IMG/VR virus record: IMGVR_UViG_3300020196_000026
Coordinates: 1 to 64,000 of that record
DNA from: a virus
Reading direction: 5' to 3' (one strand)
Length of the DNA stretch: 64,000 nucleotides
Under the pieces are notes generated by a model. It was not told where the DNA came from. It was given only the letters and a program-made list of their open reading frames with translations, and did no database searches. This document shows, piece after piece, positions 9,303 through 63,591 of this stretch (position 1 is its first letter; the number at the start of each line of letters is the position of its first letter). The translations under genes were made by a program, and so were the position numbers.

Positions 9303-9512
9303 ATGTTTTCGCCAGAACTTATAAGTCTTGTTGGCGGGGGCCTTACAGGCTTCCTCTTTAAATATATGGCTCAGAAGAGTGCTGATCAAAAGGAGATGTT
9401 TAATCAGCTCATTCAGGCTAATAAGCATCCATACCTTTCGTTGCACGGGCGATCTGAGCGACCTCCCGTTGCCAGTGCTTCTCCAATTCCCCCTTATAAT
9501 AGAGTTTATTAA
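9303..9512 (+). CDS. Truncated duplicate of the holin-like gene
   Basis: A 69-residue protein. Residues 1-41 are nearly the same as those of the holin-like protein at 6995 (MFSPELISLVGGGLTGFLFK against MFSSELISLVSGGLVGFLFR, then the shared MAQKSADQKE segment). The following 28 residues are unrelated and hydrophilic, so only one membrane segment remains. It may be an antiholin-like regulator, as single-helix relatives of holins sometimes are, or a decaying duplicate. It is convergent with, and overlaps by 4 nt, the minus-strand protease gene. Confidence 0.55.
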   Translation: MFSPELISLVGGGLTGFLFKYMAQKSADQKEMFNQLIQANKHPYLSLHGRSERPPVASASPIPPYNRVY

Positions 9513-17531: not shown

Positions 17532-20500
17532 ATGCCTATGCCTGGTGCAGATGACTTAAATCAACTCGTAGCTCCCTCTGCTCCAGTACTGAGAGGCTTT
17601 AATGATTACCGCATTACTCGTAAGAACATTTTTGACGGTGTAAAGAATGCGGTATTGTCAAAGTTTCCTTTGCAGAACACTCGATACACTGTCGAGCTCT
17701 CGGGCCTAGACTACAGCCGTTCAGAACCCTACAGTATAAAGGAACAGCAAGAAGCTTTGATGCAGAATCAGAGTCTTTATATTCCATTGCGGGGTCGCCT
17801 GGTAATGAAGGATAACGTTACCGGTGAGATTCTGGATAGGACTGATAAATCTATTACTCTCGCCAGAGTACCTTATCTTACAGATCGTGGTACTTTTATT
17901 AAATCAGGTAGTGAATACACTGTAGCCAATCAGTCTCGGCTGCTTGCAGGACCATACGTTCGTAAGCGTAAGTCTGGTGAATTTGAGGCGCACTTTAACA
18001 CTATGCCTGGCAAGGGTCGTGGTTTTCGTATGGCATTCATGCCAGATACCGGAAAGTTTGTTGCTGAGATTGGGCAGTCCGTTGCTCCTGCTTACCCAAT
18101 GTTTAAGGCCTTAGGTATTGATGACTCTATTCTTGAGCGCACCTGGGGCAAAGAACTCCTGGAGTCAAACAAGATCGGCTCTACCTATGACGCAGCTCGT
18201 ATCTATGAACGACTAACCAATAGTCCTTCAAAGGGATTAGATGATGCCACAATCTATCAAGGCATCAAGGATGCTCTTTATAAGACTGAATTAGACCCCG
18301 AGGTTACTCGTCGTACTCTGAGCTACGCCGAAGCTATCAAAAAGCAGGCAGATGTACCTCTGCGCGGCACTCTTAAGATTGAAGACGAAGGTTATATTAC
18401 CGTACCTGCAGGATTCGTGGACAGTGTTTTCTATGCACTCCGAGATTCTGACAAGGCTCCTGCTATCTCTCCCGTTGCCAATAAGAATAAGCTTATTGTC
18501 ATTACAGCAGAGGAGCTTAAACAGTTAAAAAAAGTCTTCCGTAAGAATTTTGAGACTACTTGCGGTTCTGGCCGCAGATTTACCTACAATATTCGCAACG
18601 TACTGCCCCCCAGCAACGGCGAATATTGCATTGATATCGAGTGCCCAGAGCTAGAGCAACTGCGTAGAAGCCTCTTGCTCGATGCCAAGCCTCGTGGTGG
18701 GTTTAGACTAACTGTAGGTACAAAAGTTGCTGCTGATTTAAATGAATTGCTGACTGAGAAGGAAGCCGCTCCCCTGCCAACTATGCAAGACTTCGAGTAT
18801 GAGCAAATGCAGCTTAACGACGAAGACCTAAGCAGAATTACCGGTAATACCTTACTACGCGTTTCTCAGAAGATTCTCAATGCTCAGCGTGGCCTTGAGG
18901 ATCAGGATGACCGTGACTCTTTGGCTTATCAGAAGTTTCTAGGCCCAGAGGACTTCTTCTCTGAGAGAATTCAGAAGGATGCTGGTGCAGCTGTCAGAAC
19001 AGCTTTGTTTAAAGCTACCAATAAAGGTAATTTAAACTCTTTCCGCAATGGTGTATTCACACCAGTGCTTAACGGCGTACTTATAGGATCTGGTCTTGGC
19101 GCACCCATTGAGGAAGTGAACCCGATGGAGATTCTGGACCAGAATATGCGTGTAATTCGTACAGGTGAGGGAGGCATCGGTTCGGCTGCTCACGGCATCC
19201 CTGTTGACAGTCGTTCAGTGCAGCCTTCTCATCTCGGGTTTCTAGATCCAGTTCGTACTCCTGAGTCCGACAAAGTAGGTATTGATCTACGACTTACCGT
19301 AGGCTCCTACAAGGGCTCAGATGGCCAGATATACTCCAAGATGCGCAGAACTAAGACCGGTAAGCTAGAGCCTGTGGCGGCTCGTACGCTTATCGATTCT
19401 ATTGTTGCATTTCCTGGAGAACTTGCACGCTCGGCGAAGACAGGAGATCCAATCAGGGCGATGGTGCGTGGCCGCATTTCCTATGTCGATCCCACAGAGG
19501 TCGAATACGAAGTGCCTGCCCATAGCAACATGTTTAATATTAATTCCAACCTTGTACCTGGTATCTCAGGTGTCAAGGGTGGACGCCTGCTTATGGGCTC
19601 TAAATACTTCACTCAGGCGTTACCTGTCCAGGGTGCCGAAGCGCCCCTGGTACAGGGATTAGACCCTAATGACGCAGATGGTAGATCGTTTGAGGAACAG
19701 CTTGTGCCACACCTTGGTGCTGTTGCTGCTGAAACCGAACTTGGCAATGGTCTCGTTACTGCGATTACGCCAGAATACGTTGAGGTAAAGCACGGCAAAG
19801 AAAAACGTCGTTATGAGCTGTACAACAACTTTCCATTCAATCGCAAGACTTATATCCATAATACGCCAACGGTTAAGTTGGGAGATCAGATCAAACCGGG
19901 CCAGCTTCTGGCTAAGTCTAATTTTTCTGACGACCAAGGCAGACTTGCTATGGGTCGTAATCTAAAGGTAGCGTATACGGTTTGGGGTGACACTGAACTG
20001 GGCGGCTCTAACTTTGAAGACGGCGTAGTCATGTCTGAAACGGCCGCTAAAAAGATGTCCTCGGAGCATATGTACACTGTTGGCTATGACAGCAAAGATG
20101 ACTATGAAGCCAACTTTAACAAATTTATTTCTCTATTTCCAGGACAGTACAACAAAGAGCAGTTAGCCAACCTTGACTCTGCTACAGGTGTCGTTAGGCC
20201 AGGTACTGTTTTAAATCCTGGTGATCCTATTATTCTTGGTGTAGGTGAAAGGAGGTCTGATGTATTTGGCCTGATGAAGAAGGCCAGACCGAGCTATACG
20301 AATAGAGCTCAGACCTGGGATCATAGCCAGCCAGGTGTTGTGACCGATGTTACCAAGAATCGCAGCGGATATCAGGTTGCAATTAAGTCCTATAAGCCAA
20401 TGTCCATAGGCGATAAGCTAGTCGGTCGTTATGGCGATAAGGGTGTTATTTCCACTATTATTCCAGACGAGGATATGCCAAAGGATAAGGAAGGCAATTC

Positions 20501-22448
20501 ATATGAAGTTATTTATAATCCCCTCGCTCTTGTCACTCGTGTTAATCCTGTGCAGGCCGTGGAAGCTGCAATGGGAAAGATTGCAGCCAAGACCGGCGTA
20601 CCTATCAAGCTTCCAGCATTCTTGGATGAAAGTTTTATAGATTTTGCACAACGAGAGCTAAAGAAAAACAAGCTTACCGATACAGAGACCCTTTATGATC
20701 CAAGACTCAATCGCAATATAGATAACGTATTTACCGGAAATCGCTATTTCCTAAACTTACATCATCAGGCAGAGAAGAAGTTGAGCGCCCGTGATGTCGG
20801 TGGCTACAGCACTGAAGAGACTCCAGTCAAGGGTGGAACAGAGGGCGCTAAGCGTATTTCTATCTCTGATATGAATGCTCTCCTTGCCCACGGCGCTATC
20901 GAAGTGATTAAGGATGCCAGACTTATCCGTGGTCAGAAGAACGACGAATACTGGCGTGCAATCAAGATGGGTACTCCGGTGCCTTCCGTTAATGTCCCCT
21001 TCGTATGGGATAAGTTTGTAGCCCAGCTCAAGGGTGCCGGAGTAAATGTAGAGCGTCAAGGCGGCGCCATAAACATTTATGGTATGACCGGTGAGGATGT
21101 AAAGAATTTATCTGGCGGCGAGGTTAAGGACTTTCGGGATATCGACTTTAAGACCGGTAAAGCCTATGACGGCGGCTTCTTCGACGAAAAGATCTTTGGC
21201 GTCAACCAGTCATTTTTCGGTCATTTCCCGCTTGCTGCCAAGATAGTTAACCCCGTCATGGAAGATGTGGTGCGATCTCTTACAGGCCTTACCAAGAAGG
21301 ATTTTGAATCCTTAGTCTCAGGCGATACGATTAAGGGCATTCGTGGTATGGGGGGACTGGAGCAGAAGCTTATTGGAATGAATGTTCCTGCGGAGATCGA
21401 GGCTACTCGTAGAGAAATCACGGGGTCTAAAGGTCAGAAACGCAGTAATGCTATTTCTAAGTTGTCATACCTGGAAGGCATGGAGAAACGTAAGATTAAG
21501 CCAAAGGATTTCTTCTGGGAAGACATGCCAGTACTGCCGCCTCGCTTTAGACCGATTACCGATACCGGCAATATGCAGATGATCTCAGATATGAACTATC
21601 TATACAAAGAGCTGTTTAGCATGAACAGCAATCTCAAAGATCTGCAGAGTGAGCTCGGCAATGAAGCTACAGGCAAGGAGCAGCTTGCACTTTATAAGAT
21701 GATTAAGGCTACAGTTGGACTTGCAGATCCTGCTAGTGCAAAGCTTAAGCAAAAAAATGTCAATGGCATTATTAGACACATTCTAGGTAATAACCCGAAA
21801 TTCTCAATGTTCCAACGCAAAGTCTTGTCTTCTACAGTAGAAGGCGTAGGTAATGCTGTTATTACTCCAGACCCCTCGCTAGATATGGACCACGTCGGTG
21901 TACCTGAGGATATGGCATTCTCTGTATTCCGCCCATACGTAGTTCGATCCCTCGTTGCCTCAGGGGCAAATCCTCTGGAAGCGATGAAGCAGGTTGAGAG
22001 TAGAACACCAACTGCCAAGCGAGCTCTACTCGCTGAAATGGAGAAGCGCCCGGTTATGATTACTCGAGCGCCCGTACTGCATAAGTACAACTTCATGGCA
22101 GCCAAGCCAAGATTGACCACGGGTAGCACTCTTAAACTATCGCCATCTGTTGTTGTTGGATTTAATGCAGACTTTGATGGTGATCAGATGCGGTTACACG
22201 TTCCTTCTTCTCAGAAGGCTATAGCGGAAGCCTATGATCGTATGTTGCCTAGTCGTAATCTATTGTCTGCCGCAACATTCCAGGCTCAGCCGTTTATTAA
22301 AAACGAGTTTTTATACGGTCTTTATTTAGCCAGCAAGAACTCACCAGATAAGAAAAACGTCAAGGTATTCCGCTCCAAGAATGACGTAATTCAGGCGTTT
22401 AATCGAGGCGAGCTTAGCGCTACTGACACCGTAAAGATAGTAAGATGA
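17532..22448 (+). CDS. RNA polymerase beta subunit fused to the N-terminal part of beta'
   Basis: A 1638-residue multisubunit-type RNAP polypeptide. The beta part shows VQPSHLGFLDPVRTPESDK (about 562-581, equivalent to the bacterial HYGRICPIETPEGPN region), GGSNFEDGVVMSE (about 825) and GDKLVGRYGDKGVIS (about 960). Its C-terminal clamp region is near 1111 (SDMNALLAHGA). Beta' homology starts near 1165: GGFFDEKIFG (about 1213), VLPPRFRPI (1335), ITRAPVLHKYNFMA (1510), then NADFDGDQM at 1545-1553 with catalytic Asp 1547, 1549 and 1551. The bacterial beta' zinc-finger segment between the IFG and GHF positions is missing. The chain ends about 85 residues after the active site; the rest of beta' is at 56177. 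ATG 17538 is an alternative start. It overlaps the next gene by ATGA. No alpha, omega or sigma gene is seen in the window. Confidence 0.95.
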   Translation: MPMPGADDLNQLVAPSAPVLRGFNDYRITRKNIFDGVKNAVLSKFPLQNTRYTVELSGLDYSRSEPYSIKEQQEALMQNQSLYIPLRGRLVMKDNVTGEILDRTDKSITLARVPYLTDRGTFIKSGSEYTVANQSRLLAGPYVRKRKSGEFEAHFNTMPGKGRGFRMAFMPDTGKFVAEIGQSVAPAYPMFKALGIDDSILERTWGKELLESNKIGSTYDAARIYERLTNSPSKGLDDATIYQGIKDALYKTELDPEVTRRTLSYAEAIKKQADVPLRGTLKIEDEGYITVPAGFVDSVFYALRDSDKAPAISPVANKNKLIVITAEELKQLKKVFRKNFETTCGSGRRFTYNIRNVLPPSNGEYCIDIECPELEQLRRSLLLDAKPRGGFRLTVGTKVAADLNELLTEKEAAPLPTMQDFEYEQMQLNDEDLSRITGNTLLRVSQKILNAQRGLEDQDDRDSLAYQKFLGPEDFFSERIQKDAGAAVRTALFKATNKGNLNSFRNGVFTPVLNGVLIGSGLGAPIEEVNPMEILDQNMRVIRTGEGGIGSAAHGIPVDSRSVQPSHLGFLDPVRTPESDKVGIDLRLTVGSYKGSDGQIYSKMRRTKTGKLEPVAARTLIDSIVAFPGELARSAKTGDPIRAMVRGRISYVDPTEVEYEVPAHSNMFNINSNLVPGISGVKGGRLLMGSKYFTQALPVQGAEAPLVQGLDPNDADGRSFEEQLVPHLGAVAAETELGNGLVTAITPEYVEVKHGKEKRRYELYNNFPFNRKTYIHNTPTVKLGDQIKPGQLLAKSNFSDDQGRLAMGRNLKVAYTVWGDTELGGSNFEDGVVMSETAAKKMSSEHMYTVGYDSKDDYEANFNKFISLFPGQYNKEQLANLDSATGVVRPGTVLNPGDPIILGVGERRSDVFGLMKKARPSYTNRAQTWDHSQPGVVTDVTKNRSGYQVAIKSYKPMSIGDKLVGRYGDKGVISTIIPDEDMPKDKEGNSYEVIYNPLALVTRVNPVQAVEAAMGKIAAKTGVPIKLPAFLDESFIDFAQRELKKNKLTDTETLYDPRLNRNIDNVFTGNRYFLNLHHQAEKKLSARDVGGYSTEETPVKGGTEGAKRISISDMNALLAHGAIEVIKDARLIRGQKNDEYWRAIKMGTPVPSVNVPFVWDKFVAQLKGAGVNVERQGGAINIYGMTGEDVKNLSGGEVKDFRDIDFKTGKAYDGGFFDEKIFGVNQSFFGHFPLAAKIVNPVMEDVVRSLTGLTKKDFESLVSGDTIKGIRGMGGLEQKLIGMNVPAEIEATRREITGSKGQKRSNAISKLSYLEGMEKRKIKPKDFFWEDMPVLPPRFRPITDTGNMQMISDMNYLYKELFSMNSNLKDLQSELGNEATGKEQLALYKMIKATVGLADPASAKLKQKNVNGIIRHILGNNPKFSMFQRKVLSSTVEGVGNAVITPDPSLDMDHVGVPEDMAFSVFRPYVVRSLVASGANPLEAMKQVESRTPTAKRALLAEMEKRPVMITRAPVLHKYNFMAAKPRLTTGSTLKLSPSVVVGFNADFDGDQMRLHVPSSQKAIAEAYDRMLPSRNLLSAATFQAQPFIKNEFLYGLYLASKNSPDKKNVKVFRSKNDVIQAFNRGELSATDTVKIVR

Positions 22449-29571: not shown

Positions 29572-29932
29572 GGGCCTGAACAGGTATCGACTGGTGAGTA
29601 GTTTCATGAAGAGCAAGCCGGAGTTGGTCGAAAGGCTCCGCAAAAAGTCGACTAAATTAAGACTGCCAATGAATGGTATGTCCCCTCTGAGTCCCCTGCT
29701 CTCGTAGCAGCCTGACTTGGAACCCTGGGCAGGACGCCTGCTAGACGTCCAGGGCTAATCAGCAGGATACGATGGTGGAGGCTTCGAACCAACCCCATTG
29801 AGAATTGATCTCGAATATGTTCTGAGCACCCTGTCCATGGGGGGCAAAGGAATGAAATTAAATCATGGAATAAGCTTGTAGCGCTTCATGTGATTTTCAT
29901 ACAGCACGGGGGTTCGATTCCCCCCGGGTCCA
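29572..29932 (+). ncRNA. ssrA: tmRNA with tag ANEWYVPSESPALVAA
   Basis: A 361-nt tmRNA. The 5' end GGGCCTG pairs over 7 bp with CGGGTCC (29925-29931), with wobbles, and is followed by the discriminator A. A 5-bp T arm (GGGGG, TTCGATT, CCCCC) precedes it. Near the 5' end are GACTGGTGAG-type sequence and a pseudoknot-like stretch ending CCGCAAAAAGTCGAC. The resume codon is GCC at 29665; the frame reads 16 residues and stops at TGA 29713-29715. The LVAA ending fits tmRNA degradation tags. It should rescue stalled ribosomes. The tail is CTA, so CCA must be made enzymatically. Confidence 0.95.
29665..29715 (+). other. tmRNA tag-peptide reading frame
   Basis: Frame GCC to TGA encodes ANEWYVPSESPALVAA, read after trans-translation switches to the tmRNA. 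The hydrophobic C-terminal LVAA resembles the ALAA and VAA endings recognised by ClpXP-type proteases. The tag is longer than the usual 10-11 residues of proteobacterial tags. Confidence 0.93.
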
Positions 29933-30051
29933 CTAAGTCCATGTGTCGGAGCATGGCGGGAGGGCGCTGCGCATTCCTAAATAACGCAGCAATATTTTTA
30001 TCAAAAGAATCTAACGTAGATCTATGTTCGCATCTAACTAAGGATAGTTAA

Positions 30052-51700: not shown

Positions 51701-54465
51701 AAGGGGAAAGTATCCTTTCACTTGCTCAACCGAGTACTGGATTTACACAGCGATTAAACACAATAACAAATGCAACAAACGTGCCTGTAGCGTTACGTCG
51801 CGGAGGAACAAAACGAACAAAGTTGATTTCAGCAAGTAGATATGCCTATCACACGCAAGATTTGGGCAGACACCTATATGGTGCGGGCTATAGTGTGATT
51901 GTTACAGATAATCCGGTTGTACCTGAAATTATTATGTTTGGTGGCGACCTAAGGTCGAGTGGTTGTGCACAAGATACTTATACGCCTCCTGCGGAAGCTC
52001 TTGCTATTCGTAACACACCATCCCTAACGCCTGAAGACGACATTGTTCAAATTAATACTCATAGAGCACAGATTTATGCACTTAAGAGTACCGGAGATAT
52101 TATTAATTGGGGCTACGAGGATGTGTCAAATTTTTACCAAGTAGACTCCAATAAAAAACAGTATTTTTCTTTGCCAGATAATTCCTTACGGGACATACTG
52201 CCCCGACTCACTGATTACGAAGACTCTAATCTTGCAATGTCGTATATATCGGGCATTCCTGGGGTTACTGATTCCTGGTCCGTAGATGTTTCTCTCGATC
52301 GTTATTTTAATGGTCAGAAGACAAATATCAAAAGATTCTCTGCTGTAGGTAAGTCTTCAGTTTATTCAATAGCTAATCCAGTGCATTTTGCTGAAACTTT
52401 TCTAGCTATAGATACTTGGCCAGGAGAGGCGGAGTTTCTAGACTCACAATATATTCTAAGAATTATTCCTCGAGGCGTAGCTTGTAAAGTGAATTCGGCA
52501 TCAATGTTTGCGTTGAATTTAGACTCTAAGCTAGGCATACAAAGAGTATTTATAGATGGGGCCAATGCGGGCGCCGACATGACTCAGCCTGCAGACTTCT
52601 TAATTGCCTCAAAGCAGGGCACAAACTTTGGTTCTTCTACACTTACATCCTATCCACCCGTTCGGATTAATACAGTCGTTGATAGTTCCCAAGCAATTAG
52701 TTTAACCGCCTCCGCCTCCTCAACATTTACTTCACCAAGCTTTATAAAAAACTCTTATGGAAGTAGTGCTAAGCTTGAGTTTGTCGATACTGACGGCAGT
52801 ATTGCTCGTACTGGTGGGCGAGTGGCTGACGTGAATCCGATTGACCCTTCAGATATTGCTCAAACAAAAGCATGGTATAAATATGAAAACTTGCCTACTA
52901 CTACTGGTAATTCTATAGCGAGTTGGACTAACAGTATTGCAGCTGAGACGCTTTCTCTAGCAGAAAGTAACCCTAACCTCCAGCCCAATGTAGTTGTATT
53001 TAACACGTCTTTCCGTGGCGCTCAATTTGATCGCGACACATCGCAGATCGATCGACTAGCGGTGGCAGCATCTGTAAGCGAATCTAGCTTTACCTACTTC
53101 TTGGTATATAAAAAGGCCTTTACCACTCAGCAGACTCACTGTGTATTTGGTAAGTATGCTTTACCCTCGGCAACAAGTCCAAGAGTACAAGGTATAGGGT
53201 TTAGTCAAGGTAAACCGGTTCTATTTATAGGTCAAAACCACGACATTGTAAACACTAGCGTTGGGACTACTTCTCCTGGAATTATTTGTGGCTATTTTGG
53301 GGGTGGCACAGATAGGGGCATTAGAGTTAATGGCAGCACAACTATTAATGAATCTATTAATAATTCTACTAGTGTACCTCTGAATATAACTGTTGGTTAT
53401 CATTTAGGTGGTGCAATAATTGGCGCAACTGGTAGTGCCATTTTTCACGATACCAACGATATTTATGCTGAAGTTGTTGTCGTTGAAAGTCGATTGAGCA
53501 ATAATGATATAGAGGTTATTGAGGGTTATCTTGCACATAAATTTAATCTGCAGGGCAATTTGCCTCCAAGCCACCCTTATAAAACTGCCCCTGCTGCATG
53601 GGATTCTGTTAACTCTGTTTACCCCGCAGCATTTCTTGAAGATCCACTTATGTTACTTGAATCTAATCGGCTTGTTGGTAGTAGTGGTCAAAACCAGACT
53701 TGGCTTGGTATGTTTGAATTAAACATTAACCACAAATCTAAACGTACTTCATCTGACGGTACAACAGTGCTAGATCATCATGCACCCCTATTAGCAGAAT
53801 TTGGGGTTACTGTAGGCATTACTAAAAGTTTTATTGTAATGCCTATCGTAGCTATAGCACATGCTGCAGCTGGCTTGACAGTAGATTCTGTTACAAATTA
53901 TTTGGTGGGTACGGCTGCTTGCAGCCTTAATGTTGTACCTGCAGTTAGTTTAAAACATAGAATACTATCTACAGCTTTAGTTAATAATAATAAATCTAAA
54001 GTCTTTGCTATTACTATGAATCCAAGAGTTGGTCTAAGGGGTTCTATTTTTAGCACTCTGGGTGTTTTTGGTTGCGGAGATTACGATTTTATTTATGGCT
54101 GTCTGGGTACCTCCAATTTGCCGCCAGATCTCCTTGTGTTGTCTCCAGGTATTCTGTCTAGACAAATTAATGCTATATTGGTTACATCTGCATCTATTGG
54201 TAGAATTATACCTTTAAAATTTGGCTTAATTAAATGCCAATTACAATTAGCAACAAATACCAGCAATTGCATTTGTAGTCTTAAGTCAGCTATACAGGGT
54301 TCTTGCCACGGTATAAGTGTTGTAAAGGGCGCAACGTTAAGTAATACAACGACGAGTCTAAATACTATTGCTATACTAAGTGCTTCTAATATCAAAGTCT
54401 GTGCACCAGATTTCTTTGTAAAATCACCCTCAGCACCAAAAATTAATAAAACAGGTAATTTATGA
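42739..54465 (+). CDS. Giant RCC1-repeat surface protein (3908 residues)
   Basis: A 3908-residue protein, among the largest expected from a phage. It contains many RCC1-type repeats in groups near 950-1210 (NTVVCWGDNDYGQS, TVVCWGRNNHGQT), 1895, 2390, 2490-2650 and 2750-2920. Lectin/LamG-like endings occur near 2955 (EGYFTHKYDML, LPSEHPW) and 3595 (IEGYLAHKFNLQ, LPPSHPY). Both ends carry Cys-containing beta-type repeats. No ribosome binding site precedes it; the ATG lies 1 nt after the upstream stop, so reinitiation is likely. Probably a fibre or surface adhesin. It overlaps the next gene by ATGA. Confidence 0.75.
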   Translation: MPICNLITSSVAPSTIGKPPLQNAAIVGGLNCSGSLKAILKLSFASETNSYASVVARIPEESFIVIPPDITITGRAVRCKSDVGRYEDPLIIPLPKNLLPAYLNTIRALSGVRNRSISSVRKPQIFVYPSTFLSTYNVSTESRVVIGTGGFSVFVGANSSNLQITCNVAKSTINTGLVLRPISSTLNTTTGSNKFVLIGALNGSTISCSCGLISPSLIRTVTVSSTPQITSTLISIATSTDRQVSLTSPASCIPTSSTTARLGMQHPLTSPASCIPTSSTTARLGMQHPLTSPASCIPALSLSAELSEISGPIQINSTPPITPTLSSITVGLRVEFSLTSLTGCTPRALSLSANLQRISPPPIVSLLSNPVLCSSLLPTGGYAAPLFVPGSNSNYFNQVQEYVRYPLPTATSVADALDENVLPVQYSHSVFGSMLLRLTPGYASSAGVSFSLFATQLGSSAAQYAVTPNYDAKIILLRTSTLDSQSVQQTVFGSLAVGPDVNRVAPYSSFPRSYNSSVASMGSGGSASLVSVSADVTGTYSAPTVPMLFMGSTLVRHNYNQAQSTLKPSAVATDYYYPETSAIKITKARVETTTGIYNEGLSPIYSSPAFRLLSPTEYLNYSASGANFSINAAVMAQDGTTNSPAHIHASDAMMTFLPIKTGARYAYSRYRPSALSLFATVADAGFEGEIGDISFSASFIDIDGGAVDPNELYSGDADCILRVSIIPYVHSELDSFIYIDIPVLGISTINPDRVIIDSSYRWFIEQCLIGGSFVNTHGVRSLKDFYNAPNNAPTLVTKAVLAVTRPIVNIATDQGESEQQKLSNSGDRNLLMGEFSVDISRQDLSFDTALKVNVDTASGSAISIYTSDSNPAVQASSFDPNSLHLFVKFDGTLGCRRVVSGYAGPQVLDNLDPILPKKVREFIDTGGLFSEVKVGESIIALLSQGVTGKKLFLWGYNTYGHLDVPAAVDANFLTQGYIENVKQFDFNAGHIAVILDNGKLYSWGNKKSSVWADPNISPVSNLDIGGDFSVAIVKRFNSANNGVINVIEQYGDCPPSVSVPTAGITVATRQEVWPCDPNGSCEAGEVVYAGKVLACGKGHVVLLKSDNTVVCWGDNDYGQSTVPSGLSNVIAVDAGDYHTIALKNDKTVVCWGRNNHGQTDVPGDLRAKSISAGGDFCVALRTAQSTDVSSSVGSINDEEIEDTAACWGRNNRGQCDVPTCEGISYDPTFHKYRMRFWAVYCGWDHTVGIRRDDVQSKWVTQHPEFNRFLFYNLIKIPLKTSSGQTIFDCLRRLIETYEPGSNPPVFDGIVSSTGAEYSFTPISGTNQYRTAEVSGGSRDYRLLYTASLPPTLVVQFRNTGSTDWQDLTFSRDVYNYEQNLISTDNFTDILVGLESGFDVGWNGIPVMPTWCVTVGCHSTGGGEGDDGCFLGMRIAKNGANNENITVNYITSDSSSPNLDQSWVAWGNPMAWDASVDKTKYSPYYPQSSALDISVSGDIVPANIRRSSSIILKNIFSYVGCGKQLGIGTSSFNTQYPVLNSLEANSGPLHTTMYLGPRSLEIIDTANNFLSITSSASGQSLDRYELGSFAIFISDLGLTRFFNIPTPVNAEAINLYATPEKNEDSITPPKYLNRDTLAIGFNNKSVYVERFKGILPSGYSIVSNGSSSLPSGTPNSASGYHLLFSGTVGGSSINLVMTGAYSSKYGAANSISIPFDPNYSSSSLNSAWLPDLGITIKRVRIIRHQLDAQAGNNGRKTYIPSKHVTVFRDQNSLKAYGLVISNSSEQRVDNIKSLYSMNLFSTPNAAVYVSKGNRSVIAVKNHNIHIENSYPYFTEWAGNNTKGQLDLNLFGPFAINPNQMLPGEYNSYWLMNYNQTNIGHTQLPGLGYGFKKVVCGSFHTLAIDEDGFVHAWGLNTAINPPVSSIMPWDPILFSKTGCGDYVPANLTGYFIKDSSLPLCEGESIGFVCNRAPCSWPAGSSNQDRNLQNGLFKYPKRPVDESGCMGNYLTNRAFFVSAAGLENTSVHLLSQAIFGITTTTLAGGFRFFIGLEHDDTNGARIYVDCYSSGRIYSQPLEVNPKIIYLGFSAGAGYGGFTTIRAKINTKDIVWDQGGSTTLGINCIPYDKFLNVFGDSDALIPTYNRSVKRSTQPVNPLTGDAVKASEIIAGDSFFLALYNSQTSGKMRGSLVVDHYNDEISIGFENAIAAGSIVPFLALSGPKNYFIALVDRTYIQANVTVPADSIYNGAQVASINYNFNSASPNFKIYLGQEEVSPYTDPLDYSDETVDSNPPFGRWPKVVFPGDPEFDVASPPDEVWGYRQIGITYSANQFQFSLGVGAPTVPSAAHVYPAYPVAKDTANPFLKMVTYDTVSRRLLPQSYEPETIPTSPSSIALGHSAAFAIKSDATIFSWGLNIFDQRSDIDNDNISSAIMIAANYNGALVLDNLHKVRVIGAPGVPICLESDAQPPSNLGNCIYVAVTNNGVFAAIKQGGQVVCWGCATGPYGSSLINPPTNLGNCTQISGGVQHFAALQTDGKVVCWGDNTNGQTAVPSAALSGVVKVVCGGYHTVALKSNGQVICWGANGYSQSTVPGSLGIGCLDIAAGLTHTVAIKSTGSLSAWGNIAGTPTTGSYVKLGTGLYSEYAVAVRSPETGGEMVAWGNFGNFNETAIPTTSSRRTLSFNPSTSTNVGPYKHVAISAPTQEEFNHAYANIPLSIRARNPNIIYTSAELAGLEHAIAVASGSNAYYAIKASTYGATQGSLVAWGFAGSDNALQVPTGSNFVSVHSRNRHAAARKVDNTVVCWGSNLNGQAVSPTGTYSRVACGDDFTVAINASTNKLAIWGSISSVPAPYSNIAFSTVSAGKAHVVGSALGDYSENTSSGVFKVFNGDALAFGNNNAGQCNVPGFSYSGSNMGFGVSVVAGGDFTVYELKTDGFQVFTEVDSIALLDDDRDISLFEGYFTHKYDMLCPAVLPSEHPWSVNPPVSSRTPQGESILSLAQPSTGFTQRLNTITNATNVPVALRRGGTKRTKLISASRYAYHTQDLGRHLYGAGYSVIVTDNPVVPEIIMFGGDLRSSGCAQDTYTPPAEALAIRNTPSLTPEDDIVQINTHRAQIYALKSTGDIINWGYEDVSNFYQVDSNKKQYFSLPDNSLRDILPRLTDYEDSNLAMSYISGIPGVTDSWSVDVSLDRYFNGQKTNIKRFSAVGKSSVYSIANPVHFAETFLAIDTWPGEAEFLDSQYILRIIPRGVACKVNSASMFALNLDSKLGIQRVFIDGANAGADMTQPADFLIASKQGTNFGSSTLTSYPPVRINTVVDSSQAISLTASASSTFTSPSFIKNSYGSSAKLEFVDTDGSIARTGGRVADVNPIDPSDIAQTKAWYKYENLPTTTGNSIASWTNSIAAETLSLAESNPNLQPNVVVFNTSFRGAQFDRDTSQIDRLAVAASVSESSFTYFLVYKKAFTTQQTHCVFGKYALPSATSPRVQGIGFSQGKPVLFIGQNHDIVNTSVGTTSPGIICGYFGGGTDRGIRVNGSTTINESINNSTSVPLNITVGYHLGGAIIGATGSAIFHDTNDIYAEVVVVESRLSNNDIEVIEGYLAHKFNLQGNLPPSHPYKTAPAAWDSVNSVYPAAFLEDPLMLLESNRLVGSSGQNQTWLGMFELNINHKSKRTSSDGTTVLDHHAPLLAEFGVTVGITKSFIVMPIVAIAHAAAGLTVDSVTNYLVGTAACSLNVVPAVSLKHRILSTALVNNNKSKVFAITMNPRVGLRGSIFSTLGVFGCGDYDFIYGCLGTSNLPPDLLVLSPGILSRQINAILVTSASIGRIIPLKFGLIKCQLQLATNTSNCICSLKSAIQGSCHGISVVKGATLSNTTTSLNTIAILSASNIKVCAPDFFVKSPSAPKINKTGNL
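43474..43637 (+). repeat. 66-bp tandem repeat, two full copies plus a partial third
   Basis: Units start at 43474, 43540 and 43606; the first two are identical. They encode LTSPASCIPTSSTTARLGMQ-type units. Identity in DNA means recent duplication. The repeat lies among more diverged CIP/LSA units of the same kind. Confidence 0.9.
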
Positions 54466-55363: not shown

Positions 55364-56192
55364 ACAATTTTTGACAAAAATGGCGAACACGGATTTCCAG
55401 GGTGACCTGGTGTATCCGGATATGAATTTTCAAGATCCTCAGTCTTGGGGTTCTCGCTGGGCTCAGGATGTTCAAGCCTACGGGCATTTACGACCAGGTA
55501 GCGCCGAGTACAACGCAGCAATGCAAGCACAAGGCTATAGCCCAGCCTATATGCAAGGCCTTACCTCTTTAGGTCAAAGAGCCTTAGCTCAAGCACAGGA
55601 TCCTGATGCGGTAAGGGCACTAGCCTCAGGGCAGGCTCCTAATTTTGGACAACTTATTACAGGTATAAATCCTATCCAAGCTTTAGGTGGCTACAGAAAC
55701 ACAGCGACTGCTATTATGCCTTCTGTGCAGAAAGGACTCACAGCAGGGGCAAAACAGCTTAATGCAAATTCTTTTAATCTTTTTAATGCTGCGGCTTTTG
55801 GTGGAGGAGCAGTTGAAGCAGACCTTTCCAATACGGTTTCGCAGATCATGCAGCGTGCGAAGGGGCAACTTGATCGCAACTCTCCACTAATGCGGCAGTT
55901 CATGTCCAATGCTGCTACTACCTATGCTGCAAATAAGATAGACGATTGGACATCGGGTATGGGATCCTTCGGCCGAGGCTTACGAGGTCTAGGTCACTTC
56001 TTGCTTGGAATGGGGTCTAGACTTCCAGGTTACGAAACATTTAGCAATAAGTTGGTAGACTGGTTTGGCCCCGATATGTCTAATTATTTTACCAAACGTT
56101 CTTCAATGGCTCTGCCAGCACCATATTCTCACTATGCTTCAGTTCGTATACCTTGTGGCACTGAGGTACTAACACCATGGATCCGTCGCTAA
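55347..56192 (+). CDS. Gln/Ala/Gly-rich protein, probable virion protein
   Basis: A 281-residue protein with leader-like start MDPLVRQFLTKMAN. The body is rich in Gln, Ala, Gly and Asn. Hydrophobic Gly-rich patches are seen near 140-150 and 205-225. Near its C-terminus is PAPYSHYASVRIP, echoing the MxPYxxY leaders. It overlaps the RNAP C-terminal gene by 16 nt and is likely co-expressed with it. Confidence 0.65.
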   Translation: MDPLVRQFLTKMANTDFQGDLVYPDMNFQDPQSWGSRWAQDVQAYGHLRPGSAEYNAAMQAQGYSPAYMQGLTSLGQRALAQAQDPDAVRALASGQAPNFGQLITGINPIQALGGYRNTATAIMPSVQKGLTAGAKQLNANSFNLFNAAAFGGGAVEADLSNTVSQIMQRAKGQLDRNSPLMRQFMSNAATTYAANKIDDWTSGMGSFGRGLRGLGHFLLGMGSRLPGYETFSNKLVDWFGPDMSNYFTKRSSMALPAPYSHYASVRIPCGTEVLTPWIRR

Positions 56193-58036
56193 CGACTGTA
56201 GGTCAAATACTTATCAACGAATCCTTACCCCAAGAGTACAGAGATCACACTCGTGTATGGGAAAAGTCTTCTATGCGTAAATTTCTTACGCAAATGGCTA
56301 CAACTATGAAGCCCGATGACTATAAGGATATGGTTCAAAAGCTAACGCTTATTGGTCTTAAGAGTGCTAGACAATCTCCGCTATCTAGTTTTACTTTAGA
56401 GAGTCTTAAGCCAACAAAAGCTAAAAGTAAGATTACAGATGCACTTAAAAAAGATGTTCGCAATATTCTGCGTACCACTAAAGATCCAGAACAGAGAGAT
56501 GCTGCAATTATAGAAAATACACTTAAGTATCAGGGTGATCTTGTGGACTCAGTATATGACGAAGCACTTAAGTCCGAAAATCCATTTGCTATGCAGGTGT
56601 ACGCAGGTGCTCGTGGCAATAAGAATCAGCTGTCGTCGATGATCGGTACTGACCTTATGTACAGCGATAACAAGGGTCGCCCTGTACCGATTCCAGTAGT
56701 TAACTCTTACTCCGAAGGCGTAGATCCTGTTGAGTATTGGGCAGGCTCTTATGGCGCCCGCTCAGGCGCTATTGATGTAAAGCTTGCTGTAGGTGACGCA
56801 GGATACTTCGCTAAACGTCTTACTGGTGCTGCCCATAGACTTGTTGTTACTGATGAAGATATTGAAGACGGTCAAGGTATGATGGTCGATACTGATGACC
56901 CGGATAATATGGGCGCTATTCTTGCAAGAGACGAAGGAGACTTCAAGAAGGGCACCTATATTGATGCTACCGTACTTAAGTCTCTATCCCAGGCCGGTAA
57001 AAAGCGCTTAATGGTTTACTCTCCTATTTCTGCAATAAGCTTAATGAATGGCTTACCTCGTTGGGCCGCTGGAGTTCGTGAGCATGGCAAGCTTGCTGAA
57101 GTGGGTATGAACGTAGGCATCGCGGCTGCGCAAGCAATTGCAGAACCTGTCAGCCAAGGCATGCTTAACTCTAAACACGGTGGCGGTGTTGCTAAAGGTA
57201 AAACAAAACGTACCGTAACCGGGTTTAATTACTTAAATCAATTAGTAGAAGTTCCAAAAACTTTTACAGACGGTGCTCCTGTATCCACTACGGACGGTAT
57301 TGTCGGTAAAGTTGAATCTGCCCCCCAGGGTGGTAATTATGTGCACATAAACGACACTAAATACTACGTACCTACGGATCAAGCCGTAATCGTAAAGCCC
57401 GGCCAGTCGTTAGAGGCAGGAGATTCTTTATCTGATGGTATCGTAAATCCTAAAGACATTGCAGAACTTAAAGGTATTGGTGAAGCAAGACGTCGCTTCG
57501 TACAGCAGTTCAAGTCCGCTCTTCAGGAAAACGGCCTACCTGCTCATAGACGTAATGTTGAGGTTGTGGCCAGAGGTTTGATTAATCAGGTTGAAATTAC
57601 TGAGCCTGACGTCATTCCTGGAACCTATCCGGAAGATTTGGTTAGCTACGATTATTTGGCTTCTCAATATGAACCTCGTCAAGGGTTTGTATCCGGAGCT
57701 GCAAGTAAATATTTAAATTACTATTTAGAGAAACCGATTTTGCATTATTCGATCGGAACTCGTATAACTCCTAGCGTTGCTAAGGATCTAAAAGAAAACG
57801 GATTTGGAGACGTTGTTGCGCATAAGAATCCACCCCCATTTAAGCCAACTATGACAAGAGCTATGATGTCATTGATTGGCGATAGAGATTGGATGGTCCA
57901 ATTAGGTGGATTTAATCTTAAAAAAACATTTTTAGATAATGTTCAGCGAGGAGCAACGTCTCAAATTCACGGAACGTCTTGGATACCCGCTCTTGCAACA
58001 GGAGAAATATCTAAGGGCCCTAAAGGCACTTATTAA
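56177..58036 (+). CDS. RNA polymerase beta' C-terminal part (bridge helix and trigger loop)
   Basis: A 619-residue protein completing the beta' begun at 17532. It starts where bacterial beta' has TTVGR (here TTVGQILINESLP, residues 5-17). It continues through GARGNKNQLSSMIG (about 143-156) and the bridge-helix segment YGARSGAIDVKLAVGDAGYF (about 191-210). The trigger-loop region follows (SQGMLNSKHGGGVAKGK, about 325-341), then the C-terminal jaw and clamp sequences near 440-480 (VEVVARGLINQVEIT). It has no DFDGD, so it needs the fused beta-beta' chain. The two genes are 34 kb apart. It overlaps the previous gene by 16 nt. Confidence 0.93.
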   Translation: MDPSLTTVGQILINESLPQEYRDHTRVWEKSSMRKFLTQMATTMKPDDYKDMVQKLTLIGLKSARQSPLSSFTLESLKPTKAKSKITDALKKDVRNILRTTKDPEQRDAAIIENTLKYQGDLVDSVYDEALKSENPFAMQVYAGARGNKNQLSSMIGTDLMYSDNKGRPVPIPVVNSYSEGVDPVEYWAGSYGARSGAIDVKLAVGDAGYFAKRLTGAAHRLVVTDEDIEDGQGMMVDTDDPDNMGAILARDEGDFKKGTYIDATVLKSLSQAGKKRLMVYSPISAISLMNGLPRWAAGVREHGKLAEVGMNVGIAAAQAIAEPVSQGMLNSKHGGGVAKGKTKRTVTGFNYLNQLVEVPKTFTDGAPVSTTDGIVGKVESAPQGGNYVHINDTKYYVPTDQAVIVKPGQSLEAGDSLSDGIVNPKDIAELKGIGEARRRFVQQFKSALQENGLPAHRRNVEVVARGLINQVEITEPDVIPGTYPEDLVSYDYLASQYEPRQGFVSGAASKYLNYYLEKPILHYSIGTRITPSVAKDLKENGFGDVVAHKNPPPFKPTMTRAMMSLIGDRDWMVQLGGFNLKKTFLDNVQRGATSQIHGTSWIPALATGEISKGPKGTY

Positions 58037-59252: not shown

Positions 59253-61385
59253 ATGGCCAGAAAGAACATCATTAAGCTTGCAGATGATGCATCCTTTGAG
59301 CAGAATTTCTTTCAATTGGCTTTTGCCTATATTCGAGACAAGATCCCAAATCTGCTCGACTACATGCTTGGTTTTGAGGTAGTTAACAAGAATGACGATG
59401 GCACTCAAGCCATTGGTCTTTTTAAATTTGATATAAGCGGACGACAGCTCTTTGTTCCTGTGTTCTATAAGAACGGCGAGCTCAAAGGCGCTGAACTCCT
59501 TTATAATCAAAATCAGGACAAGTTTGTACCCAATAAGGAAAACTGGGTCGACTCTATACTTAACTCTCGTCCAGAAGAACTCGGCTCTCCATCAGAAATG
59601 TCGAAAAGCGACATCATGAACGGCATGCAGTCTGGTCTAGACCTGAGCAAGATCTACAACCCTACGATGAACACTAAGCTCAGCATGGACCGCATGCAGA
59701 GTCTTACTTCTTCCTTTGATTGGACACTGCCTAACTTCCTTAAGCAAGCAGACTGCAAGTTGTCTGAGATCTACACCCGTACTTTAATGCAGAATCCCGA
59801 ACTGCACAAGTTAGCTACTGAGGCTTACGGCGAGGAACTTTACAAAGCTCTCGAGTCTTGTAAGAAGTCTGAGGCTGTTATCCAGCTAGACAACGACAAA
59901 GTTCCAGAAGTCCAAGTGATCGACGCTAATAGTCCTCAGCCGGTATTTGACTCGATGAGTGATGCCGAGAAGAAGGAGTTGCTTGAGGAAGGCGTTGTCC
60001 TGCGCGACAATAGATCCGAGGGCAAAATTCCTTATAAAATTCAACGTCCAATGAAGCTAAATGCTGCAGAGGGCGCATGCGCATGCGACTTACTGATGAA
60101 GGGCGGCTCTTTTCAGCGCGGTGCAATTCTACCCGAACTAGGCGTAGATAACTTTAATAAACATGTTTTTATTCCTATGGGGAATAAAAATATCACGCCT
60201 TGCTGCATTGAGTCTTCAAAAGCTTTCGTATCTTCTTTTGATAATGCTCACGAGGAGTTTAAAAAGTTTATTGAAGCCCTACCGGATGCCAGCTCAGCCA
60301 AGGTTCAAGCTGGAGATTCCATCAATGTTTACAACACGGAAGTCCCATATACTATCTTTGTTGAAGCAGATGGCTCTCAGGGTTCAAGTGCAGTTTGCTT
60401 AAAGAATAAAGTCGAGTTTGATTCAACCGCTACTTATGAAGTAATGTGCGGTAACTACTCAATCGACAAGGTTGTAGTATCTCCTGCTTATAAGCGCATG
60501 AGGCTTATTGATAAAACTCTTTATGTTCCCGTGAAGGCTAAAGTACACTCCTTCAAAGCTAAAGCATACTCTTGCCCTAGGCTAGATATTGGTGACGCTA
60601 GAGATATCGATGCCAAGATCAAGGGCCTGTTTGATGAAGTAAAGGTTGCCAAGGATCGCAACGGATTTACTGTATCTTGCAATGGCAAAGTCTTGTTTAA
60701 GCAAGCAAGTCGTCGAGACACCTATATAAGTCTAGTTGCTGGTGTGGGCTTGGATATTGCTAGTGCTAAAGGCGCCATTAAACAAGCAGCTACCTTAGAG
60801 CCTGTAGTGTACATGTTGCAAAAGAGCGCTCAGGGGCCGTTCTTCGACCCGGGCCAGGTCTTTGCCCCGAATATTCCCTCAGTCCCAATGGGCATGAATC
60901 CCACCTTGGGTGTTCCAGAGCAGTATCCCCAGGCCGAGACAATGAACGCCATGACTGGCGCTCCCGGTAATGTCTTAAACCAGCGCATCATGGATGGCAT
61001 CGGTGGCATGAATCAGGCTCAACCTGCTCTTAGCCAGCAGGCAGTCGATGAAATTATGCAGGCTGCTCAAGCCGGGGAGAAGGATGTTTTCGACGTCGCT
61101 AATATTTCTCAGCTTATCAATCGTGCAGATATTGATACGCCCTTGGATCAATACCTTGTGGACCTTAACCAGGCTCTGGATCGTCTTGGTAGAATCTATT
61201 TCCTCATGCTTTTCCACGGCGATAAGTTTGCCGAGCGCTTTAGCCAAGAAGATATTCCCAGCATGGAAGAGTCTGTTCGTAATACCTTTACCCATCTCGG
61301 CGAACTAATTCTTAAACTGAAAGAGCGCAAGATTCAGTCTGACTCAGGATCTGCGGTAGAAACCGATCTTAACCAGCTTGTGTAA
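59253..61385 (+). CDS. Large conserved phage protein, probably virion-associated
   Basis: A 710-residue protein. The N-terminal segment (FEQNFFQLAFAYIRDKIPNL, then LFVPVFYKNGELKGAELLY) resembles a family I have seen in large phages without an assigned role. A middle region has Cys and Asp-rich motifs. The segment about 525-620 is Pro/Gln-rich, and the C-terminal quarter is helical. A leader-like SFDWTLPNFLKQADCK lies near 155-170. No enzyme motif. It overlaps the next gene by 1 nt (TAATG). Confidence 0.65.
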   Translation: MARKNIIKLADDASFEQNFFQLAFAYIRDKIPNLLDYMLGFEVVNKNDDGTQAIGLFKFDISGRQLFVPVFYKNGELKGAELLYNQNQDKFVPNKENWVDSILNSRPEELGSPSEMSKSDIMNGMQSGLDLSKIYNPTMNTKLSMDRMQSLTSSFDWTLPNFLKQADCKLSEIYTRTLMQNPELHKLATEAYGEELYKALESCKKSEAVIQLDNDKVPEVQVIDANSPQPVFDSMSDAEKKELLEEGVVLRDNRSEGKIPYKIQRPMKLNAAEGACACDLLMKGGSFQRGAILPELGVDNFNKHVFIPMGNKNITPCCIESSKAFVSSFDNAHEEFKKFIEALPDASSAKVQAGDSINVYNTEVPYTIFVEADGSQGSSAVCLKNKVEFDSTATYEVMCGNYSIDKVVVSPAYKRMRLIDKTLYVPVKAKVHSFKAKAYSCPRLDIGDARDIDAKIKGLFDEVKVAKDRNGFTVSCNGKVLFKQASRRDTYISLVAGVGLDIASAKGAIKQAATLEPVVYMLQKSAQGPFFDPGQVFAPNIPSVPMGMNPTLGVPEQYPQAETMNAMTGAPGNVLNQRIMDGIGGMNQAQPALSQQAVDEIMQAAQAGEKDVFDVANISQLINRADIDTPLDQYLVDLNQALDRLGRIYFLMLFHGDKFAERFSQEDIPSMEESVRNTFTHLGELILKLKERKIQSDSGSAVETDLNQLV

Positions 61386-62284
61386 TGCGTAAAGCAAACG
61401 TCTCGTTATCCGGCAATCGCCAACCCGCTCCTCGACGGCTGAAGAGCCCCGACTGGAGATATAACTATGTCGTCAGCCTTATCGACGAATGGCGAGAGCC
61501 CCGCAAAGATGACGATAAATACGTGTGTGAGCTGTACGCTTTACTAAAGGCTATTAGGCAAGAGCCGGTAGATGTCGTAGAGAGTTATAAGGATTCTAAT
61601 CCAAATATTGCGGATGCCTTGATGCTCTACGAGAATGGTCCGTCCTATCGAGTAGACGTAGATACACGCATCCTAGTAAATTATTCTTTTGAAGAAATTG
61701 CTCGAGTAGTCGGGCATAATCCAATAGTTATTGAATATTACGTAAAGTGTTTTTTTGATGTAATTGATAACCTTAATAATTACGGATACTTAAATCGCTG
61801 GGTTGTAGAGCCGATTATGCGCTCAGCTCCATTTAGTAATGAGGCTTTTTGGAAGCGTCTTGCTGTGTTTGGCGGACGGGAAATGTTGGAGTCTGTGGAG
61901 AAGTGCTCGCAACATCAAATGCAAAAGCTTTATGAAACTTTGTTTGACAACTTGGTTCTTTCCAAGGGTATCCAGGCTGCCAACGGTATTGTGCCTAATG
62001 CTAGAAATGCAACTGAACTTATCGGCCTAGCCAAAGACAATATAAATGAGCGTAAAAAGATTGAGGCAATCTTTGGTGGAGTAAAGGAAGATGATGCCTT
62101 TACCTCTCAGATCGTTAGTGTAATGCTGAAATCTTTTACATTTGGTCTAATGAATAACAACGCACTGCCCGCAGATCCATTACGATCTGGTCAGTATTCT
62201 AATGAAGATCTAGCCTCGCTACATCTCAATAATCCACCTCGTTTTGTTGAAAATCAAAATCAAGGTAAACTAGAGGAACAATGA
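61385..62284 (+). CDS. Unknown protein with possible helix-turn-helix
   Basis: A 299-residue protein whose ATG overlaps the upstream stop. Residues about 99-125 (YSFEEIARVVGHNPIVIEYY) have a helix-turn-helix-like spacing, as in small DNA-binding phage proteins. The rest is helical. A DNA-binding role (packaging or regulation) is possible but weakly supported. It overlaps the next gene by ATGA. Confidence 0.6.
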   Translation: MRKANVSLSGNRQPAPRRLKSPDWRYNYVVSLIDEWREPRKDDDKYVCELYALLKAIRQEPVDVVESYKDSNPNIADALMLYENGPSYRVDVDTRILVNYSFEEIARVVGHNPIVIEYYVKCFFDVIDNLNNYGYLNRWVVEPIMRSAPFSNEAFWKRLAVFGGREMLESVEKCSQHQMQKLYETLFDNLVLSKGIQAANGIVPNARNATELIGLAKDNINERKKIEAIFGGVKEDDAFTSQIVSVMLKSFTFGLMNNNALPADPLRSGQYSNEDLASLHLNNPPRFVENQNQGKLEEQ

Positions 62285-63591
62285 GTGAATTAAAGCATAT
62301 TTCTTTAGAAAATAAAGAGCGGTTGGTGGAACTGGTTAACAAGACTGCCAGTTACGTCAACGACGGTATGGAGCCCACTGATGCTTTAGTAAAAGCTGCT
62401 AGTGATAGTGAGTATCCCAATGATTACGTTCTGCGTGCTGCAGAGGCTTATAATGGCGCTGCTCATCTTGCTTATTTTAAATCTGCGAGTCTTGATGAGC
62501 GGGGTAATTCTTTTGCTCTCGCTGATGGCCTAAGTGCAGTTGCCCGTATTTTAAATGCTACGAAGGTTGATACAAAGAAAGCTGAAAAGGTTTCTTTTTC
62601 TTATCTATCAGAGACAAGTGGCTATTTTGATACGGCAGAGGACGACAGCTTTCTTTTTGTAGAGAAGCAAGCAACTGCCCCCTCCTTTGATTCAATTAAT
62701 AGGGCTGCAGCTGCTTTAGACAAGCAAGAAAAGCTAGCTATTGAAACAAATAGAAACTGTTACAATCAAGCCTGTGAAAGTTTGGCTAAAAGCATTATGT
62801 GTTTTAAGGAAAAGACTGCAACGGCGACCACTTATCGTAAAATGCACTGGGCTAGAGAAATGCTCGAGCGTCATGGTAAAGAAGCGCTTGACGTTATTAG
62901 TATTGCTACTGGTGTGACTGGCGCAGAGTGTACCAAGTTAGCTGCTGATAAAGTCGGTTATTTTTCTTTAGGCAATGACGAACTTAATTCCTTGGATTCC
63001 ATCATTCAAAGATTCAACCAAGTGCGTTTACTAAATACTAAGCTTGCTCAGGTTGAGCATGACGCTTATGTCAATCGTTTAGAGCGCAACAACCTACTTA
63101 ATGATGCTTGTGGGGTTAAACCTTTTTATAAAAAAAAAGCTGGTAGAATAGCGGATTTTAACGATACTCTTGAAACCGTTATAAATAGAATGAATCCTAA
63201 CATGGGTGCTTCTAGCGAATCAATTCAAAGAGGTATTTTAGAAGGTATGGCTGATCCTGACTTTATTGATAAGTCTTCTAAAATTGATAAAGCTCTAATT
63301 CTACATAAGCTTATAAAGTCAGATCCAATTATTGGTTCTCGTGCGCCCCACGAGATTGAGCAAGCATTATCTGAGATTAGTTCCATTGCTCCAACTGCAA
63401 CTCGCAGCGAACCCTTGCTTCGATCCATGCTTCGTCGTAGACTAGAAGCAGGAGAACAGATTGATGACTTCTCTCTCAATCAAATGCTTGCAATGGAAGA
63501 TCGAATGAGAGATCAGTATAGAGAGTATTCTGTTGTACCCAAGCTGACGGGTCTCAGCGAATCCGACCGAGGAGCAGGAAAAGGCAAATAA
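62281..63591 (+). CDS. Unknown helical protein
   Basis: A 436-residue protein coupled to the previous one by ATGA. It looks mostly helical with Lys/Glu/Ala-rich segments; short leader-like pieces recur (KTASYVND, LVKAASDSE, FVEKQATA). No domain recognised. Its stop overlaps the next ATG. Probably part of a structural operon with its neighbours. Confidence 0.6.
   Translation: MSELKHISLENKERLVELVNKTASYVNDGMEPTDALVKAASDSEYPNDYVLRAAEAYNGAAHLAYFKSASLDERGNSFALADGLSAVARILNATKVDTKKAEKVSFSYLSETSGYFDTAEDDSFLFVEKQATAPSFDSINRAAAALDKQEKLAIETNRNCYNQACESLAKSIMCFKEKTATATTYRKMHWAREMLERHGKEALDVISIATGVTGAECTKLAADKVGYFSLGNDELNSLDSIIQRFNQVRLLNTKLAQVEHDAYVNRLERNNLLNDACGVKPFYKKKAGRIADFNDTLETVINRMNPNMGASSESIQRGILEGMADPDFIDKSSKIDKALILHKLIKSDPIIGSRAPHEIEQALSEISSIAPTATRSEPLLRSMLRRRLEAGEQIDDFSLNQMLAMEDRMRDQYREYSVVPKLTGLSESDRGAGKGK

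Follow-up and report, generated by a model that had tools for sequence, protein, structure and literature searches.

Genes of the split polymerase

We analysed a stretch of 64,000 nucleotides of DNA of an uncultured phage, below called the window, that comprises positions 1 to 64,000 of the IMG/VR record IMGVR_UViG_3300020196_000026; the record itself is a 69.1-kb fragment and not a full genome. The window contains two genes of a multisubunit RNA polymerase (RNAP), named here chain A and chain B (Table 1). Cellular polymerases keep the beta and beta' subunits whole, with few exceptions. Here beta' is divided between the two genes. They are on the same strand, and 33.7 kb separate the stop codon of chain A from the start of chain B. 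A first-pass annotation, made from the letters of the window alone, had proposed such a split, with halves about 34 kb apart.

Chain A starts with the beta domains Rpb2_3 and Rpb2_6 of Pfam, the latter (E 2.1e-43) corresponding to the beta-subunit barrel. They are followed by the domains of the N-terminal part of beta' (beta'N), Rpb1_1 and Rpb1_2 (E 1.6e-24). RNAP families of PHROG are matched as well, and the best PDB sequence matches of the beta'N part are the cyanobacterial gamma subunit (E 4.9e-49) and bacterial beta'. The catalytic aspartates DFDGD, previously assigned to this chain, are indeed found there within the motif NADFDGD (residues 1545-1551), and the C-terminus is 86 residues past this motif. 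Since the Rpb2 domains, Rpb1_1, Rpb1_2 and NADFDGD are encoded by one open reading frame (ORF), chain A is a beta-beta'N fusion. Thus the earlier description of chain A as half of beta' is correct for its C-terminal part, but incomplete, as beta is fused upstream. The gene is under purifying selection, with a ratio of nonsynonymous to synonymous substitution rates (dN/dS) of 0.03-0.04 in comparisons with relatives.

Chain B contains the Pfam domain RNA_pol_Rpb1_5 (E 5.9e-22 to 9.8e-22), to which the bridge helix and the trigger loop belong. Both regions, also placed here by the first-pass annotation, can be aligned to Thermus beta'. The match to Rpb1_4 (21.1 bits) is under the family cut-off. 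His334 occupies the position of the catalytic histidine of the trigger loop and is invariant across 23 sequences, and its retention fits an active enzyme. The AlphaFold model of chain B (mean pLDDT 79, pTM 0.64) is superimposed on residues 556-1185 of Staphylococcus aureus beta' with Z 30.7 over 534 residues, and on residues 568-1367 of Escherichia coli beta' with Z 28.5. The predicted fold is that of the C-terminal half of cellular beta' (beta'C), end to end. The nonsynonymous rate of chain B in comparisons with relatives is 0.06; no dN/dS ratio is given, because synonymous positions are saturated. The motif GAGGT, about 10 nt upstream of the start codon, is retained in close relatives. Given this division of domains between the two ORFs, the cut in beta' falls after the catalytic barrel and before the bridge helix.

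Fragments of beta' are scattered in some phage genomes, and one could suppose that one of the two chains is a mere relic, decaying or unrelated, and that there is no split enzyme. This is hardly credible, as the two chains carry the full set of catalytic motifs, are under purifying selection and occur together in more than 30 relatives, as follows from the ORF structure around the polymerase genes.

Junction of the chains

When bacterial beta' and the one-chain enzymes of phage relatives are aligned with the window chains, the end of chain A (TDTVKIVR-stop) and the start of chain B (MDPSL-TTVGQILIN) occupy adjacent positions, and thus no segment is missing or duplicated. Chain B resumes at TTVG, in line with the earlier observation that it begins where bacterial beta' has TTVGR. 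In the split genomes compared, A ends and B starts at the same point, whereas bacterial beta' and the one-chain enzymes of G034, G036 and G037 are continuous there.

Mobile elements are common in the RNAP genes of this family. Intein-like inserts are present in chain A of the relative G002 and in lengthened chain B frames of other relatives, and a group I intron interrupts chain A of Vibrio phage D181. One possibility is, then, that the halves are joined after expression by a split intein or a trans-spliced intron. However, both the C-terminus of A and the N-terminus of B are so close to the homologous junction, within a few residues, that intein halves could not be accommodated. Furthermore, intron RNA was not detected next to these ends in the window, and chain B has its own start codon with the conserved GAGGT, which resembles a ribosome-binding site. 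We consider this mechanism very improbable and reject it.

No second beta' was found in the 69.1-kb record, which has a single Rpb1_5 match. Four long relatives (174.6, 183.5, 180.8 and 186.7 kb) have one beta'N region and one beta'C region each. A complete beta' elsewhere, named in the first-pass annotation as grounds against a split subunit, is thus seen neither in the record nor in these relatives. The profile of the alpha subunit (PF01000) had no match in the 11 records tested, but matched 13 of 14 control genomes. The proposal that the active centre is built from two polypeptides is well supported at the level of sequence: the halves are complementary, the junction is exact, selection is purifying, and the pair is retained in the related genomes.

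Chain arrangements in related phages

A scan of viral contigs with the alignment of chain B yielded 48 loci, and the family comprises about 40 phages. A scan of genome contigs with chain B produced a single match, QVQF01000100.1 (L144), in a contig binned to a metagenome-assembled genome of Methylococcales; it is a possible hint at the host.

Three arrangements were observed. In G034, G036 and G037, beta, beta'N and beta'C form one chain of about 2020-2200 amino acids. In the window clade, Salmonella phage Arash (OQ632216), Vibrio phage D69 and most other members there are two chains, beta-beta'N and beta'C. In nine genomes (G020, G026, G028, G032, G033, G039, G041, G045, G046) there are three chains, as a second break in beta' leaves its first ~115 residues attached to beta and places the catalytic loop on a separate chain of ~385 residues. 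In G011, G012, G014 and G038 beta is also broken and contains inserted segments.

For the trees, the sequences of beta, beta'N and beta'C were concatenated, and bacterial sequences served as outgroups. Matches in phage collections that resemble contaminating bacterial DNA (e.g. OR844998, OR846602) were used only among these outgroups. The one-chain phages branch as the sister group of all phages with a split enzyme (SH-aLRT 99; mixture model 100/99), and the split and continuous states are related by one change on the tree. Three placements with one-chain enzymes nested inside split groups, that is, re-fusion, were rejected by the AU test (p 0.002, 7e-5 and 0.019). According to the simplest reading of these trees, the fusion of beta with beta' came first, and the break in beta', which has a single origin, followed. 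If fusion preceded the break, this explains why the N-terminal half of the broken beta' is attached to beta. Some doubt about this history remains, as the branches are long and there are only three one-chain genomes.

Polymerase genes of some relatives are interrupted. Chain A of G002 (L017) and G003 (L016) contains an intein-like insertion of 407-408 residues at a shared site after residue 772 of the window chain; its first residue is Cys, its last residues are HN, and the next residue is Thr. Inserts were also observed in chain B of other relatives, and a LAGLIDADG insert was observed in the terminase of G002. The group I intron of D181 (L149:3604-3884) is followed by an annotated homing endonuclease and is absent from D69.

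Spacing of the genes and their neighbours

In the 34 split genomes that have both genes in the available stretch, B follows A on the same strand at a distance of 0.6-11.3 kb (median 3.1 kb). Since the flanks are limited, short gaps are over-represented in this sample. The gap is 4.8 kb in Arash, 0.6 kb in D69 and 36.5 kb in G002, and the coordinates of G009 and G022 indicate gaps of about 13 and about 82 kb, respectively. Since the gaps are short in most split relatives, the 34-kb spacing is most likely a late feature of the window clade and not part of the working of the enzyme.

PHROG searches with ten window proteins encoded near the A and B genes produced no matches, and therefore virion identity was drawn from orthology with Arash. 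Downstream of chain B there are orthologues of the Arash particle proteins gp218, gp222 and the major capsid protein (MCP), and a weak one of gp220, in the same order as in Arash. The MCP gene starts at position 68791 of the record, beyond the window. The immediate neighbours of chain A have no recognisable virion function in the window; in Arash, the portal gene is two genes upstream of gp206, the orthologue of chain A. Thus the earlier suggestion that both genes are situated among probable virion genes holds for B, whereas the neighbours of A in the window are uninformative.

Table 1. Features of the polymerase genes and downstream neighbours (window coordinates)
Feature	Coordinates	Strand	Description and basis
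Chain A, fused RNAP beta-beta'N	17532..22448	+	1638 aa, 181 kDa; Pfam, PHROG, identity to Arash
beta part of chain A	17532..21068	+	residues 1-1179; profile boundaries
beta'N part of chain A	21069..22445	+	residues 1180-1638; ends TDTVKIVR-stop at the break
NADFDGD catalytic Mg motif	22164..22184	+	chain A residues 1545-1551; motif in the beta' barrel
Chain B, beta'C	56177..58036	+	619 aa, 67 kDa; starts at TTVG; Pfam Rpb1_5, fold match
Bridge-helix region NSYSEGVDPVEYWAGSYGARSGAIDVKLAVGDAGYFAKRL...	56702..56860	+	chain B residues 176-228; alignment to Thermus bridge helix
Trigger-loop region GMNVGIAAAQAIAEPVSQGMLNSKHGGGV	57104..57190	+	chain B residues 310-338; Thermus alignment; His334 invariant
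Gene downstream of B	59253..61385	+	G002 orthologue matches Arash gp218 (virion-detected, 36 unique peptides); orthology
Gene downstream of B	62281..63591	+	weak match (E 5e-4) of the G002 orthologue to Arash gp220 (virion-detected); orthology

Arash particles and the sigma factor

The first-pass annotation guessed that the enzyme is a virion RNAP. Orthology supports this: both chains have orthologues among the best-detected proteins of Arash particles. In the mass spectrometry study of these particles (PMC10585845), to which all Arash particle data below refer, gp206 (chain A) heads the list of detected proteins with 128 unique peptides and 3516 spectra, and gp216 (chain B) and the sigma factor gp10 are represented by 40 unique peptides and 1210 spectra, and by 24 unique peptides and 467 spectra, respectively. 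We normalised the counts by length for the 81 of 116 proteins whose length is known; such counts are crude. When these 81 proteins are ranked by unique peptides per residue, the sigma factor is 1st, MCP 2nd, chain A 3rd, chain B 9th and the portal protein 13th, and soluble, co-purifying enzymes such as ribonucleotide reductase are at 54-81. When spectra are divided by length, A (2.3 per residue), B (2.0) and sigma (2.0) differ little. The second sigma factor of Arash, gp196, does not appear in the published particle list.

Of 24 related records, 22 encode a sigma factor of the gp10 family, among them one from a one-chain phage. The two records that lack it are short fragments of 64-69 kb, and one of these is the window record. 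The search was done with a profile of two gp10 sequences, the Pfam profile Sigma70_r2 having missed the sigma factor of the window clade, which retains a match to Sigma70_r3.

The polymerase could instead be a non-virion enzyme that is made after infection and transcribes middle or late genes; in Arash particles it would then be carry-over of an abundant protein. Indeed, the phiKZ-like phages have a non-virion enzyme with similar parts (PMC7598289), and the authors of the Arash study themselves pointed out that proteins abundant inside the cell could be purified along with the particles. However, the length-normalised counts of A, B and sigma are in the range of MCP and portal and far above those of ribonucleotide reductase, pyrophosphatase and the helicases gp193 and gp197. 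Near-equal counts of A, B and one specific sigma factor, with gp196 unlisted, argue for a specific packaged complex, and the chain B gene is embedded in a cluster of head genes. We consider a non-virion enzyme unlikely. Packaging is the preferred reading, and by analogy with Arash it would extend to the window virus.

The gene adjoining that of chain B in Arash, gp217 (L019:31262-32677), encodes an SNF2-type helicase that is abundant in the particles, according to the same source. Its homologues were found in 10 of 22 records and in none from the window clade, and thus it is outside the core claim.

Proposed enzyme

The comparisons above establish the composition of the chains, their junction, the single copy and the family history. 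It is likely, judging from the retained domains and motifs, that A and B assemble into an active enzyme. The whole explanation, to which we assign a probability of roughly 0.8, is as follows. Chains A and B would form one alpha-less RNAP core of bacterial type that consists of two polypeptides. The beta half and the NADFDGD loop that binds Mg would come from chain A, and the remainder of beta', with bridge helix and trigger loop, from chain B. The chains presumably meet in trans at the loop immediately preceding TTVGR, making one active centre. It is probably a phage sigma factor of the gp10 family that brings this core to phage promoters. Virions probably contain the holoenzyme and deliver it at infection for transcription of the first phage genes. 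An ancestral single-chain beta-beta' polymerase would have been broken once, with the halves at first close together near the head genes; in the window clade, the two genes would later have come to be about 34-37 kb apart.

Several observations weigh against this explanation. The particle evidence comes from Arash orthologues that are only 31% (A) and 25% (B) identical to the window chains, and the co-purification suggested by the Arash authors applies to it. The sigma gene is present only in the 175-183-kb relatives of the window record and not in the 69-kb record. As this record is a fragment, a further subunit or a sigma factor may be encoded in its missing part.

A broader interpretation is that a family distinct from the phiKZ-like phages packages a sigma-dependent two-chain holoenzyme, that the transition from one to two to three chains proceeded in one traceable lineage, and that the breaks may help the enzyme to pass the tail, its active centre being put together only inside the host cell. 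We offer it tentatively, at somewhat less than even odds.

Other elements of the window

A transfer-messenger RNA gene was found at 29572-29935 of the plus strand (Rfam RF00023, 114.5 bits); it was not reported by ARAGORN. A candidate pistol self-cleaving ribozyme is at 1603-1678 (+; RF02679, 53.6 bits). Two adjacent giant ORFs at 36279-42737 and 42739-54465 (+) encode proteins of 2152 and 3908 amino acids with RCC1-like repeats, the second one with a match to a tail protein; no counterparts were seen in the corresponding gap of G002. A trypsin-like protease gene is at 9509-10246 on the minus strand, among plus-strand genes.

Comparison with known systems

The closest arrangement is that of gp206 and gp216 of Arash and of the Vibrio phages D69, D148 and D181: the division into two chains, the order, the strand and the head-gene context are the same. 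Of the cultured phages, Arash and D69 are the nearest to the window virus. Arash and D69 differ from the window in the short distance between the halves and in the low identity of the chains. The Arash chains are annotated as 'beta' and 'beta prime', and the passages of the Arash report consulted mention neither the fusion nor the break.

In the virion and non-virion polymerases of jumbo phages of the phiKZ/AR9 type, beta' is, as in the window, broken after the double-psi beta-barrel (DPBB) domain, with the halves encoded by separate genes and with no alpha; alpha is likewise absent from phage multisubunit enzymes in general (PMC7598289). The beta'C chain of Bacillus phage BpSp (632 amino acids) can be aligned to chain B. 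However, in the phiKZ-like enzymes beta is also split and beta'N is not fused, whereas here beta is whole and fused to beta'N. Moreover, phiKZ-like genomes encode two polymerase sets and no recognisable initiation factor (PMC7598289), whereas the 175-187-kb relatives of the window have one set and the family has a recognisable phage sigma factor. In Acinetobacter phage Ab1-TPeters (110-kb genome), the genes of beta'N (438 amino acids) and beta'C (507 amino acids) are about 39 kb apart; its beta'N is not fused to beta, and both chains are only weakly similar to those of the window.

Cyanobacterial and plastid RpoC1 and RpoC2 also divide beta' between the DPBB domain and the bridge helix. Unlike chain A, the cyanobacterial N-terminal half is not fused to beta. 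The cyanobacterial beta' chains (PDB 8gzg, 8gzh, 8syi, 9dvs) match chain B from residue 20-21, and thus the break in the phages is about 20 residues before the cyanobacterial one.

The mReC phages (Weinheimer and Aylward 2020, PMC7481178), compared here by description only, are similar in being Caudovirales with a cell-like multisubunit RNAP and the motif NADxDGD, known from contigs of IMG/VR and other metagenomes and branching apart from cells. In the parts of that description searched, no split, sigma factor or virion packaging is discussed, and 'fused' and 'fusion' refer to crAssphage.

Thus a split beta' is already known in the phiKZ-like phages (PMC7598289) and in cyanobacteria, and phages with a cell-like RNAP have been described as mReC (PMC7481178). 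In the literature searched, coverage of which is partial, we found no report of the beta-beta'N plus beta'C arrangement or of the series of one, two and three chains, and none that connects the particle proteome of Arash with this family. Here a single phage family provides a graded series of the same enzyme in one, two and three chains, some with inteins or introns. Since it has a cultured representative, which is propagated on a laboratory Salmonella host and whose virion proteomics are published, it is accessible to experiment. The assembly of an active centre from pieces without alpha, the entry of a large enzyme together with phage DNA, and the possible co-delivery of a phage sigma factor could all be tested in this system.
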